In this document: positions 26,345 through 30,883 of the stretch, one piece after another
Layout of the letters: each line of letters starts with the position of its first letter
How positions within the stretch are numbered: the first letter of the stretch is position 1
Origin: Syntrophales bacterium
GTDB lineage: Bacteria; Desulfobacterota; Syntrophia; Syntrophales; UBA8958
Direction: 5' to 3'
DNA length: 64,000 bases
Assembly (NCBI GenBank): GCA_026416455.1
Contig: JAOAFE010000010.1
Location: 1-64,000, forward strand
Translations under genes and position numbers: made by a program
Notes under the pieces: model-generated
Databases searched by the model: none
Told to the model about the DNA's origin: nothing
What the model saw: only the letters and a program-made list of their open reading frames with translations

Positions 26345-26392
26345 AAAAAAATGGCGGATGTAAGAAAATGGGACTTTTTCTTCATCCGCCAT
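26345..26392 (-). terminator. Strong Rho-independent terminator of the candidate small RNA
   Basis: Read on the minus strand, ATGGCGGATG and CATCCGCCAT pair, continued inward by AAGAAAA with TTTTCTT (one bulged A), a 17-bp stem with a 7-base loop. Seven Ts follow directly, then GC and six more Ts. It cannot serve hppA, which already has its own terminator and runs in the other direction. Confidence 0.85.
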
Positions 26393-26542
26393 CGTATGTT
26401 AACTGAAAGGGTCTTTTTTTAGCTCCCCACCCTTTCAGATTCCCACCGAGGGGGGGGTGGTGGGTGGAAAGGAGGGACAAAAACCACCCACCGCTTTAAA
26501 AACCGTCTTCCCTTCTCACAAAGGGTTTCAATCTCAGTCGAT
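26345..26542 (-). ncRNA. Candidate sigma-54-dependent small RNA, about 198 nt
   Basis: The 473-bp space between hppA and the sigma-54 activator gene holds no convincing gene but an ordered set of signals on the minus strand. A -24/-12 promoter (26552-26569) predicts a start at A26542. The RNA would then form three perfect hairpins: 26459-26492 (9 bp), 26403-26438 (10 bp) and the terminator at 26351-26392. The first two both have 16-base loops. The first loop contains CCCTCCTTT, complementary to a strong Shine-Dalgarno sequence. No open frame of note starts after the predicted transcription start. Known sigma-54-dependent small RNAs such as CrcZ lie next to their activator gene in the same way. 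The existence of the RNA is inferred, not shown. Confidence 0.62.
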
Positions 26543-26551
26543 ATATAATCT

Positions 26552-26569
26552 TTGCAATCCACATGCCAA
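26552..26569 (-). promoter_or_regulatory. Sigma-54 (-24/-12) promoter
   Basis: The minus strand reads TTGGCATGTGGATTGCAA. The -24 GG and -12 GC are exactly 10 bases apart, and eight of nine informative bases fit the consensus TTGGCAC-N5-TTGCA. It points away from the activator gene into the hairpin-rich interval. Confidence 0.72.
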
Positions 26570-26644: not shown

Positions 26645-26661
26645 TGTGCAATATATGCACA
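26645..26661. promoter_or_regulatory. Palindromic activator site 1 (TGTGCA-N5-TGCACA)
   Basis: TGTGCAATATATGCACA is a palindrome with 6-base arms. Its centre is about 110 bp upstream of the predicted small-RNA start, a normal distance for an enhancer bound by a sigma-54 activator with a Fis-type helix-turn-helix. Confidence 0.55.
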
Positions 26662-26713: not shown

Positions 26714-26750
26714 TGTGCTTAAAACGCACATGGTGTGCGCTGCAAGCACA
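26714..26750. promoter_or_regulatory. Palindromic activator site 2 (nested TGTGC/GCACA repeats)
   Basis: An outer pair TGTGCTT/AAGCACA encloses an inner palindrome CGCACA-TGG-TGTGCG. The same GCACA/TGTGC half-site therefore occurs four times in 37 bp, centred about 190 bp upstream of the predicted small-RNA start. It ends at the last base before the activator gene's stop codon. It could also fold as a hairpin at the 3' end of that mRNA, but no T-run follows. Confidence 0.5.
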
Positions 26751-28826
26751 TTAGGACTCAAGGGAGAGCTTTTTTTCTTCCCGGATAAGTTTGTAACGAG
26801 AAATTCCCAAGAGGCGGGCGGCCCGCGATTTATTTCCCCCGGAGACTGATAAGGCGCGACTGAGGAGTCGTCGCTTGATGGCGCAATTGATCTTATCTGT
26901 AAGATGGTCGTAATTTATGCCCGTGAGGGGCAACTGTTGGATCAAAGGCTCTATATTTAGGTCTGTGTTCTTTTGGGTAGAAGAAAGAATTTCCGTCGGC
27001 ATATCCTCCGGAGTAATGATGTTACCTGAAGATTTCAATATCATTATCCTTTCGATAATGTTCCTGAGTTCCCTCACATTACCCGGCCACTTGTACTCTA
27101 CTAAAATCTGTTCCGCTTCGGGAGTAAAGCCTACTACCGTCTTTTTGAACTTCCGGTTGAACTCGTCAACGAAGTGCCGCGCCAGGATTATTATATCTTC
27201 CTGCCTCTCCCGGAGGGGAGGAATTTCTATCGGTACAACTCTTATACGATACAGCAGATCTTCTCGAAACTCCCCGTTTGCCACCATGGATGAGAGATCA
27301 CGGTTGGTTGCGAAAATAAATCTTACATCGATTGGAATCTTTTCCGCCCCACCCAAACGTCTCACATATCCATTTTCCAGCATTCGTAAAAATTTGGCCT
27401 GTAAATGTAGAGGCATCTCCCCTATTTCATCGAGTAGGACCGTGCCACCGGCGGCATATTCAAGCAATCCAATTTTTCGCTTCTTCGCATCCGTGAAGGC
27501 CCCCGCCTCGTAGCCGAACAGCTCACTTTCTAGTAGGTTTGCCGGTATGGCAGCGCAGTTAAGATCCACAAAGGGTTTATTGCTTCTCGAACTATGTCGA
27601 TGGATGGCCCGGGCTATTAGTTCCTTACCAGTTCCACTTTCACCCTGGATGAGTACATTCGTATTGTGGTCCGCTATCTCGGCAATGATATGGAAAATTT
27701 CTACCATCTTCGGAGAGCGACCTAATATGTCATGAAAACCGAGGAGTTCGTCTTCTCTTTCCTTGAGTTTTTTCACTTCCGATTTCAGATTTTCCGCTTC
27801 TGCATATAGCAGGGCGTGCATGATGGAATTTTCAAAAAAAGCGGCACAATTCTTGACCAAGATATCTATTACGTTCACCTCATCTGAATCATAGTTACCC
27901 TCTTTCTTCGCTATGAGCATGACCCCCACATATCGGTCTTTGATGAGTATGGGAACGGCGAGTTCCACCGGGTATCCAAAGAACACGGGCGAGAAAGAGT
28001 TACCCTTTCCCAATATCCCAATAGATGTGCCCTGGGTAATGGCTTCTGTAGCAATCGTGCCAGCCAGATCTTTTTTTATGTCTTTAACCTTTTTTCTCAC
28101 TACCTCTTCCCCTTCGCTCACCCACCCTTCGCTTTCTTCCGGAGACCAAATAAAGGCGATGGCTTTCGGCGCACCGGTTATTTCCTTGGCGGCCCTCACG
28201 GCGATGGAAAGGATTTCATGACTGTTCTCATAACTGGCGTTCATGGCAGAGACGGCATTCTCCAGAGCAAAAAGACGAAATATCTTTTTTTTGTTTTGAT
28301 CGAATAGATGGGCATTGTGTATGATGATACTCATCTGATTGGTGAGGGCTAAAAATAACTTTATTTCATCGGGATAAAATTTCACCTCCCTTTCACACCA
28401 CACGGCAATGACGCCCATTACATTATCACCCGCTTTCAGGGGGGCACAAATGATGGCTCCCTTTACCATCCGCGAGGACAGGCGATCGAGGCCAAGTATC
28501 CCCTCTTCATCCGTAACCACACCGCCCCCTATGGCCACCGCCCGGCCCGTTCGAAAGACCCTCGCCGCCAAGGAGTCCTGCTTCTCTAAACTGAGAGACA
28601 GAGATCTAATCTTTTCTTCCTCTTCCTGAGCATAGTTCTTAACCATTCTCACTTTCAGTCGATTTTCTGCCGCATCAAGGAGGAGGATACATCCTTGGTC
28701 AAAACCAATCGTTTCCACCACCTCATCGAGGATCGCTGCCAGTACATCGTTTAAATCGGCTTGAATGGTCAAAAGACCACTGATACGAAATATGCTTTTA
28801 AGTAACCTATCCTTATCTATTATCAC
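26751..28826 (-). CDS. Sigma-54-dependent transcriptional activator with GAF domains
   Basis: Enhancer-binding protein that remodels sigma-54 RNA polymerase. Two GAF sensor domains (about residues 10-175 and 185-335) are joined by a coiled coil (341-362) to an AAA+ domain with Walker A GESGTGKE (395-402) and Walker B GGTVLLDEIGE. A Fis-type helix-turn-helix ends the protein (about 650-690, GGNKSRAARLLGISRYKL). The sigma-54 contact loop is GAFTDA (442-447) instead of the standard GAFTGA. There is no receiver domain, so a small ligand probably sets activity. GTG start with GAGGGA upstream. It is the last gene of a minus-strand run and is followed by its likely target sites. Confidence 0.92.
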   Translation of the reverse strand: MIIDKDRLLKSIFRISGLLTIQADLNDVLAAILDEVVETIGFDQGCILLLDAAENRLKVRMVKNYAQEEEEKIRSLSLSLEKQDSLAARVFRTGRAVAIGGGVVTDEEGILGLDRLSSRMVKGAIICAPLKAGDNVMGVIAVWCEREVKFYPDEIKLFLALTNQMSIIIHNAHLFDQNKKKIFRLFALENAVSAMNASYENSHEILSIAVRAAKEITGAPKAIAFIWSPEESEGWVSEGEEVVRKKVKDIKKDLAGTIATEAITQGTSIGILGKGNSFSPVFFGYPVELAVPILIKDRYVGVMLIAKKEGNYDSDEVNVIDILVKNCAAFFENSIMHALLYAEAENLKSEVKKLKEREDELLGFHDILGRSPKMVEIFHIIAEIADHNTNVLIQGESGTGKELIARAIHRHSSRSNKPFVDLNCAAIPANLLESELFGYEAGAFTDAKKRKIGLLEYAAGGTVLLDEIGEMPLHLQAKFLRMLENGYVRRLGGAEKIPIDVRFIFATNRDLSSMVANGEFREDLLYRIRVVPIEIPPLRERQEDIIILARHFVDEFNRKFKKTVVGFTPEAEQILVEYKWPGNVRELRNIIERIMILKSSGNIITPEDMPTEILSSTQKNTDLNIEPLIQQLPLTGINYDHLTDKINCAIKRRLLSRALSVSGGNKSRAARLLGISRYKLIREEKKLSLES

Positions 28827-28849: not shown

Positions 28850-30883
28850 TTAAGGTTGATCAAAGATGGCAAACTGCATGGTAAAAGTTGCCCTCCCCTG
28901 CGTGAGGGACCGTAAATCAGTTGAATAACCAAACATGGATCTCAAAGGGACCCTCGCCTTTATCTCACTGACCGGTCCTTTCGGGGTGATGAGCTCTACC
29001 TCTCCTCTCCTCGCGTTTATATCGCCTATTACCTCTCCCATGAATTCACTAGGCGTGATCACATCTACGTACATGATGGGTTCAAGCAGAATAGGCTCGG
29101 CCTCACTACAACCCTCTCGAAAAGCAGTAACGGCGGCTATCTTATACGCCATAGGTGAAGATTCCCCCTCACGGTAGCTACCTCCCACTATTTCTACCCT
29201 GATATCTACCATGGGATACCCAGCCAACACACCGGTAATTAATCCCTCCCGAATTCCCTCTTCAATGACAGGATGAAATTCCGCCGGTATTGACTCAGAT
29301 GATAGCTGGTTTACCACTTCCACTCCCGCCCCCCTCGCTAGAGGAGACAGAAGTAACCTCACTTCACCAAAGTGGCGCTTATCTCCCAATTCCTTCTCAA
29401 ACCTCCGCTCAACTTCCACTGCCCGCTGTATCGTCTCCCTGTAGACCACCCTCGGCTTACCCACATTTACATGGACGTTATACTCCCTTATCAAACGGTC
29501 AATGACGATCTCTAAATGCAACTCTCCCATCCCCGAGATTACTGTCTGGGCAGTTTCATCGTCGTATTTAAGCCTTAATGTGGGATCTTCCTCTAAAAGT
29601 TTGGCCAGGGCAAAGGATAACTTATCTTGATCTCCTGGTGTCTTCGGCTCTATGGCCTGACTTATCACCGGTTCGTAGAACTCGATGGATTCCAAAAGAA
29701 TGGGATGATTTTCATCACAGATCGTATCTCCCGTGTAGGCCTCTTTCAAACCCATGACAGCCACGATGTCTCCGGCAAGCCCCTCAGTGATCCTCTCCCG
29801 CTTGTTCGCATGCATCTTTAAAATGCGTGAGATCTTTTCCTTTTTGCCCCGCGAGGCATTGTAGACGTCGTCACCCTCTTGGATTCTGCCGGAATAAATC
29901 CTCAAATAAGAGAGTTTTCTTCCCTCATCTTGCATAATCTTGAACACTAAGGCCGTCAGAGGACCATTCACATCACTTACACGCTCCTCCTCTTTATGAT
30001 CGATGGGATTTCTGCCTCGGACGGGACGCACTTCCTCTGGCGAAGGGAGGTATCTTACTACGGCATCCAATAAGGGCTGAATGCCTTTGTTTCTCAGGGC
30101 GGATCCGCAAAGGACGGGCACGACTTTCAGAGACAGGGTTGCCTTCCTCAGGGAGGAAATGATCTCTTCCCCACTTATGTCTTGCCCATCCAGATACTTT
30201 TCCGCCAGCTCATCGTCAAATTCCGCAATTGTTTCAATCATCTTCTCTCGTTCCCGACGTACGATGGATCGCATGTCGGCTGGCACCTCTTCCGAAAAAT
30301 AGTTAACTCCTAATGATTCCTCATCCCACGTTATGGCCTTCTCGTCGATCAAATCGATGACACCGATAAATCCATCTTCCTTACCCCATGGTATACAGAC
30401 GGGGACGGGCACGGACTGGAAACGCTCCCTCATCATCGATACCGTCTCCCAAAAGTCGGCACCCACCCGGTCCATCTTGTTCACAAAGGCTATTTTAGGT
30501 ACCCCGTATTTATCGGCCTGATGCCATACCGTCTCCGACTGTGGCTCCACCCGCCCGACGGCACAGAACACCACCACCGCTCCGTCCAACACCCGCAGAC
30601 TTCTTTCCACCTCGATAGTGAAGTCTACATGGCCCGGAGTGTCAATTAGATGAATCTCGTAACCACCCCACTCGCAGGTAGTCACCGCCGAGGTAATGGT
30701 GATGCCCCGCTCTTGTTCCTGGGGCATCCAGTCCATCACCGCTTCCCCATCGTGGACCTCCCCCATTTTGTGCGAACGTCCCGTGTAGTAAAGGATCCTT
30801 TCCGTAACCGTCGTCTTTCCCGCATCAATATGTGCTATAATACCTATATTTCTTATGCGAGAGAGCCTTTTCTTCTTCGACAT
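28850..30883 (-). CDS. Elongation factor G, second-type paralogue (EF-G2)
   Basis: Ribosome translocase-like GTPase. It carries G1 [10 protein letters not shown]2 RGITI, G3 DTPGHVDF, G4 NKMD and G5 GSA, then domains II-V up to residue 677. It is not in a str operon with rpsL/rpsG/tuf but between a GerMN gene and a sigma-54 activator. Such isolated copies are usually the EF-G2 type, which can act in ribosome recycling or slow translocation. The functional split from the main EF-G is inferred. Confidence 0.9.

Follow-up and report, generated by a model that had tools for sequence, protein, structure and literature searches.

A Syntrophales family of predicted sigma-54-dependent small RNAs with a conserved anti-Shine-Dalgarno loop and an adjacent candidate enhancer-binding protein

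What does a -24/-12 promoter transcribe when it follows the end of a sigma-54 activator gene? This arrangement occurs on the minus strand of the window, the whole stretch of 64,000 nucleotides analysed here, and the initial annotation proposed a two-gene module in which the activator controls a regulatory RNA of about 198 nt. The promoter was present as described, with GG and GC ten bases apart and a predicted start at 26542, and we confirmed that hppA has its own terminator and that the activator gene ends at 26751. Conserved promoter elements, enhancer-like sites and covarying stems support the module, and expression is inferred. The initial annotation had not recorded the enhancer sites, an anti-Shine-Dalgarno (anti-SD) loop, a small open reading frame (ORF) in relatives or the restriction to one order. 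Following the activator stop codon (26751-26753), the minus strand carries three palindromes, the promoter, the RNA and the terminator, in that order, and hppA is convergent to the RNA gene:

26751..28826, minus strand: sigma-54 activator of the enhancer-binding protein class (bEBP), GAF-GAF-AAA+-HTH, 691 aa (ORF, Pfam, orthologues)
26734..26750, minus strand: enhancer-like site 1, TGTGCTTGCAGCGCACA, abutting the activator stop codon (pattern search; conserved in relatives)
26714..26730, minus strand: enhancer-like site 2, TGTGCGTTTTAAGCACA, 20 bp from site 1 (pattern search; conserved in relatives)
26645..26661, minus strand: enhancer-like site 3, TGTGCATATATTGCACA, 69 bp from site 2 (pattern search; conserved in relatives)
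26553..26568, minus strand: sigma-54 -24/-12 promoter, TGGCATGTGGATTGCA (position and sequence conserved in relatives)
26346..26542, minus strand: predicted small RNA, about 197 nt (start from the -12 element, end from the terminator)

The activator matched the Pfam families Sigma54_activat (5.6e-69), GAF and HTH_8, and its full-length orthologues (46-58% identity) are spread across the Syntrophales. The sigma-54-contacting motif reads GAFTDA where GAFTGA is expected, in all 30 activator loci checked (window 26751-28826 and L003-L031). RpoN is encoded in the same genome; Hfq was not found there. Upstream of the activator lies fusA (28850-30883), likewise in many relatives (L005, L010, L016, L019, L021 and others). 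Downstream of the RNA, many relatives carry a convergent gene with a YchF-like FRFNV C-terminus (L004-L015), the place that hppA occupies in the window. The activator gene of genome G044 is split by an insertion that apparently encodes an opposite-strand transposase (L214 = G044:C1:1967500-1972500; L217).

The promoter TGGCATGTGGATTGCA differs at one position from TGGCACG-N4-TTGCW, and +1 was placed at 26542 from the C of the GC at 26554. The palindromes have the form TGTGC-N7-GCACA and lie within 106 bp after the activator gene, with the centre of site 3 at about -111 relative to the predicted start. Pattern searches of the whole 2.1-Mb genome returned seven YGTGC-N7-GCACR sites, three of them behind the activator gene, and no further occurrence of the full TGTGC/GCACA form. 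Twenty-nine loci have an orthologous activator and sufficient sequence beyond it. Two or more palindromes stand behind the activator in 26 of them and three in 19 (shuffled mean, 0.008 per sequence), at a spacing fixed at 20 and about 68 bp. A -24/-12 element with at most two mismatches follows the activator in 23 of the 29, compared with 1.7% of shuffles. Three activator loci are devoid of sites (L018, L025, L026); in those genomes the RNA has been relocated and is accompanied by sites and promoter (L119, L068, L071).

The predicted RNA has a folding energy of -76.5 kcal/mol (z = -4.5; not one of 200 shuffles was equally stable). The three hairpins of the initial annotation, CCCTTT/GAAGGG, GGTGGGTGG/CCACCCACC and CTGAAAGGG/CCCTTTCAG, were all found. 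Its terminator hairpin and T7GCT6 run also stood, but the helix length of 17 bp did not, as RNAfold gives 18 pairs with one bulge. The parts of the RNA were assigned as follows:

26510..26525, minus strand: 5' hairpin CCCTTTGTGAGAAGGG, CCCTTT/GAAGGG, outside the conserved core (fold)
26458..26493, minus strand: hairpin 1, conserved stem GGTGGGTGG/CCACCCACC, 9 bp (covariation, helix 1)
26468..26477, minus strand: anti-SD loop UCCCUCCUUU of hairpin 1 (unpaired probability 0.88-1.0; loop conservation)
26450..26457, minus strand: C-run behind hairpin 1 (alignment, column identities)
26403..26438, minus strand: stem 2, CTGAAAGGG/CCCTTTCAG, 9 bp (covariation, helix 2)
26346..26390, minus strand: terminator hairpin GGCGGATG/CATCCGCC and T-run (covariation, helix 3)

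A covariance model built from an alignment of 21 relatives matches positions 26346-26495 within the RNA. An automatic alignment was set aside, because the palindromic hairpins produced reverse-strand matches, and 55 copies were aligned without structural guidance. In these, 95.4% of the cells pair, and two-sided changes occur in 19 of 27 pairs (8.9 in shuffles; none of 500 as high), while sliding the pairing partners lowers pairing to 37-55%. The alignment was drawn from model hits and is biased toward conserved copies; the shuffles and slides argue that the stem covariation is real despite this bias. A further conserved stem, GAGACCTC...GGTCTC, was seen near the predicted start in the leaders of seven loci (L013, L014, L016, L017, L020, L021, L030).

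The model matches 87 of 155 Syntrophales genomes, often once and sometimes two to six times; the genome of the window holds a single copy. The initial annotation had suggested a covariance search across the phylum for a conserved promoter, hairpins and adjacent activator. All three proved conserved in relatives, and the RNA is confined to the Syntrophales: no credible match was obtained outside the order in a search of 395 genomes across the phylum. The sole hit there (G432, 29 bits) sits inside an htpX-like coding sequence and was dismissed as chance. The viral contigs searched gave no match, and the named records that match the hairpin are labelled Syntrophales, Syntrophaceae, Syntrophus or, broadly, deltaproteobacterial MAGs. 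Rfam, at gathering and permissive thresholds, yielded only low-scoring overlaps, mostly with terminators and none credible.

Activator and RNA also occur together. Across 60 genomes, 42 have both, one the activator only, four the RNA only and 13 neither (Fisher p = 6e-9), with the truncated activator orthologues of G006, G044 and G053 scored as present; kinship among the genomes inflates this p value. The activator-only genome (G054) has a contig that stops before the RNA. Among the four genomes with the RNA alone, enhancer sites are missing from the copies in G018 and G031; in G043 the contig breaks off shortly upstream of the RNA, and in G048, which is 72% complete, the copies retain the sites. 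In genus g25, the RNA lies directly behind fusA, a place that the activator takes in the window, and has neither sites nor a -24/-12 element; judged from these sequences, activator loss and site loss go together. The case that the initial annotation had named as a refutation, relatives keeping the activator with promoter or compensatory changes lost, was sought and not encountered. RNA copies behind fusA without sigma-54 signals (L084, L085, L095, L098) have AAATCAGAWACACTCCCATTG upstream in common, possibly another type of promoter.

The control region accompanies the RNA beyond the activator locus. Two or more sites and then a -24/-12 element precede 67 of 92 distinct RNA copies, and the absence of the full arrangement in the remaining 25 is due partly to contig ends or longer leaders and is partly real. 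Copies distant from the activator gene can carry sites and promoter (e.g., L062, L063, L068, L071, L078), and two extra copies in G005 do so as well.

A nearly invariant part of the RNA is predicted to be unpaired. Of the 55 aligned copies, 52 show the motif CTCCTTT in the hairpin-1 loop and 33 show it in the terminator loop, and the loop columns are nearly fixed while stem positions change in pairs. The window differs from most relatives in having no anti-SD motif in its terminator loop. Its hairpin-1 loop, UCCCUCCUUU, is the complement of AAAGGAGGGA, a Shine-Dalgarno (SD) type sequence; NfeR1 uses loops of this sort to pair with the ribosome-binding site of mRNAs, which are thereby silenced (PMC10746234). 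The pattern of the 16S 3' tail was not found in this MAG, a negative without weight. In the genome of the window, GAAAGGAGGGA is not over-represented (9 occurrences, 7 for the reversed pattern), and the genome therefore offers no independent target signal. An exact SD complement with a start codon at SD spacing occurs at 12 sites in this genome, for which no background was computed. The list, which includes acyl-CoA ligase, acyl-CoA dehydrogenase, ABC transporter and nitroreductase genes, contains many enzymes of acyl-CoA and fatty-acid metabolism, but these bacteria commonly carry such genes and the candidates have no statistical support. We regard exact-complement targets as leads only. Within the window, GAAAGGAGGGA, to which the sRNA loop is exactly complementary, stands at SD distance (1883-1902) before an ORF of about 500 aa that starts at 1900 and resembles tannase/feruloyl esterase. 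One recurrent candidate, a CaiB-like CoA-transferase gene, retains the SD AAAGGAGGGA in genomes of one genus (L181, L184, L185, L193, L206); among these is G010, a genome in which no copy of the RNA was found.

Many relatives encode a charged small protein of 60-80 aa between promoter and hairpin 1, with FF(L/I/V)S and a C-terminal FFLPE or FFLSD as motifs. Six close pairs gave a dN/dS ratio, which was 0.14-0.43 in five; the sixth, very close, had too few changes for a judgement. These proteins had no Pfam match at E values up to 1. In the window, only 60 nt separate promoter and hairpin 1 and there is no ORF, as in at least nine further RNA copies; a search for the protein elsewhere in the genome, run without a positive control, found none. 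The ancestral transcript was probably a small-protein mRNA with a 3' sRNA, of which the window lineage has the sRNA part only. Three copies (L070, L081, L094) lie behind another small ORF, which is marked by LE(K/H)DALEII; the one tested had no Pfam match.

We consider it likely that these loci form a Syntrophales family of sigma-54-dependent, trans-acting sRNAs that are switched by an adjacent, dedicated enhancer-binding protein and block ribosome binding, with expression and targets inferred. The GAF domains of the activator would sense some signal, and its C-terminal Fis-type helix-turn-helix would bind the three YGTGC-N7-GCACR sites that follow the activator gene, as suggested by their conservation, position and co-loss. 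AAA+ hexamers, reaching the promoter by looping, could then open sigma-54 RNA polymerase at -24/-12, a step established for this activator class. The predicted product would be a terminated RNA of about 197 nt, in which the hairpin-1 loop UCCCUCCUUU may pair with an SD of the AAAGGAGGGA type and block translation of the target mRNA; in most relatives the terminator loop would supply a second anti-SD element. Counting against this explanation, transcript, activator binding and target are all without measurement, and as no Hfq was found, base pairing would have to proceed with a different chaperone or unaided. The lack of GAAAGGAGGGA enrichment, the real absence of the full control arrangement in some of the 25 copies and the terminator loop of the window, which has no anti-SD motif, also weigh against it.

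The small protein might instead be the real product, with the hairpins acting in cis as its 3' UTR on stability, termination or autoregulation through a GGAGG near the start codon, and with the window copy as a degenerate remnant. The frequent occurrence of the two-motif ORF among the copies, its dN/dS values and the A/G-rich GGAGG just inside several ORF starts speak for this reading. We hold it to be unlikely, since at least ten ORF-less copies in several families, the window included, retain promoter, sites and hairpins, the loop motif is better conserved than the protein, and the stems are intact in the ORF-less window. That the region is merely a tandem terminator or transcription boundary without a functional RNA agrees with its position between convergent genes and its strong terminator; this is barely tenable given the conserved enhancer-promoter unit upstream, the presence of the RNA with that unit at unlinked sites, the conserved loop and the covarying stems.

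Known decoys of Crc/Hfq present A-rich CA motifs, and the present RNA could act as a decoy too, its repeated C-rich loops titrating an RNA-binding protein in the way that CrcZ titrates Crc. The loop motif in two hairpins of most relatives resembles multi-site decoys, Hfq was not found, and the control logic is like that of CbrB/CrcZ (PMC6296734). However, the loop fits the anti-SD character of established base-pairing RNAs and lacks both the CA motifs on which Crc/Hfq decoys rely and the GGA of the CsrA type. A CsrA decoy was rejected on the missing GGA, and a protein decoy seems to us quite unlikely. A wider proposal, which we offer as a long shot, is an order-wide translation throttle of syntrophic bacteria. 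The GAF activator would respond to the energy or redox state, and a single sigma-54 transcript would then supply a mimic of the 16S rRNA tail, in the form of one or two anti-SD hairpins, together with a disordered FFL-motif protein in most species that targets the ribosome or some translation factor; such a function would be mirrored in the gene order fusA - activator - RNA - ychF.

As members of methanogenic communities, the Syntrophales subsist on very little energy, and nothing on sRNA regulation in this order was found in the literature searched. They gain with trans-acting sRNAs of this kind a first well-supported RNA family and a matching one-component sigma-54 sensor, which has few other strong sites in the genome of the window. 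In many relatives the transcript also encodes small proteins of a new family, and the window offers a possible case of a small-protein mRNA turned into a pure sRNA. The family would also be a further arrangement of an enhancer-binding protein commanding an RNA, beside Qrr/LuxO and CrcZ/CbrB.

Qrr and CrcZ are each an Rfam family; Qrr RNAs are Hfq-dependent, and crcZ adjoins cbrB. The Qrr/LuxO system of Vibrio shares a sigma-54 promoter, upstream palindromic enhancer sites and a bEBP-driven sRNA (PMC10162802), and its multiple Qrr copies parallel the extra copies found here, which are similarly controlled. LuxO belongs to the response regulators and its sites read TTGCAWWWTGCAA, whereas we found a GAF sensor and YGTGC-N7-GCACR sites, and the RNA differs from Qrr in sequence, in its anti-SD loops and in that Hfq was not found. 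The RNA does not qualify as a Qrr, as the region has no Rfam match and its sites are TGTGC-N7-GCACA, not LuxO-type TTGCAWWWTGCAA. In Pseudomonas, the bEBP CbrB directly drives the sigma-54-dependent CrcZ/CrcY RNA, sometimes in two or three copies (PMC6296734). The parallel with CrcZ drawn in the initial annotation thus holds for bEBP command of a sigma-54-dependent RNA but not for the RNA itself, which resembles an anti-SD RNA, not a protein decoy: CbrB sites are non-palindromic and CrcZ sequesters protein, whereas the present locus has palindromic sites and a conserved anti-SD loop, no Rfam match and no repeated CA-rich decoy motifs. The alphar14 family (NfeR1) of the Rhizobiales is similar in its hairpins with an ultraconserved unpaired anti-SD motif and divergent stems. 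It represses translation by SD pairing (PMC10746234), a mode of action that is inferred here from complementarity alone. It carries CCUCCUCCC in three hairpins under LysR/NtrC control, in contrast to CCCUCCUUU in one or two hairpins under sigma-54 control in an unrelated taxon; with UCCCUCCUUU as the window loop, the anti-SD character is common and the alphar14/CcsR motif CCUCCUCCC is not. The transcript layout of the relatives resembles ccaF1-CcsR, the CIN1 case of Rhodobacter, where a small protein of about 70 aa is co-transcribed with downstream hairpin sRNAs (CcsR1-4) and followed by a terminator (PMC10253847). There, the promoter is of the RpoH type and the protein has DUF1127; here, the promoter is of the sigma-54 type, and the FFL-motif protein is unrelated, without Pfam match in relatives and absent from the window, so that the locus does not qualify as CIN1 either. 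The tested membership features fail for each system, and the RNA belongs to none of Qrr, CrcZ, alphar14 and CcsR. Two features of a bEBP-commanded RNA are present, namely a -24/-12 element directly upstream of the RNA and conserved palindromes of fixed spacing as predicted bEBP sites, and RpoN, on which transcription would depend together with the bEBP, is encoded. We therefore class the locus with a Syntrophales family of predicted bEBP-commanded anti-SD RNAs, with control like that of Qrr/LuxO and CrcZ/CbrB and a loop like that of alphar14.
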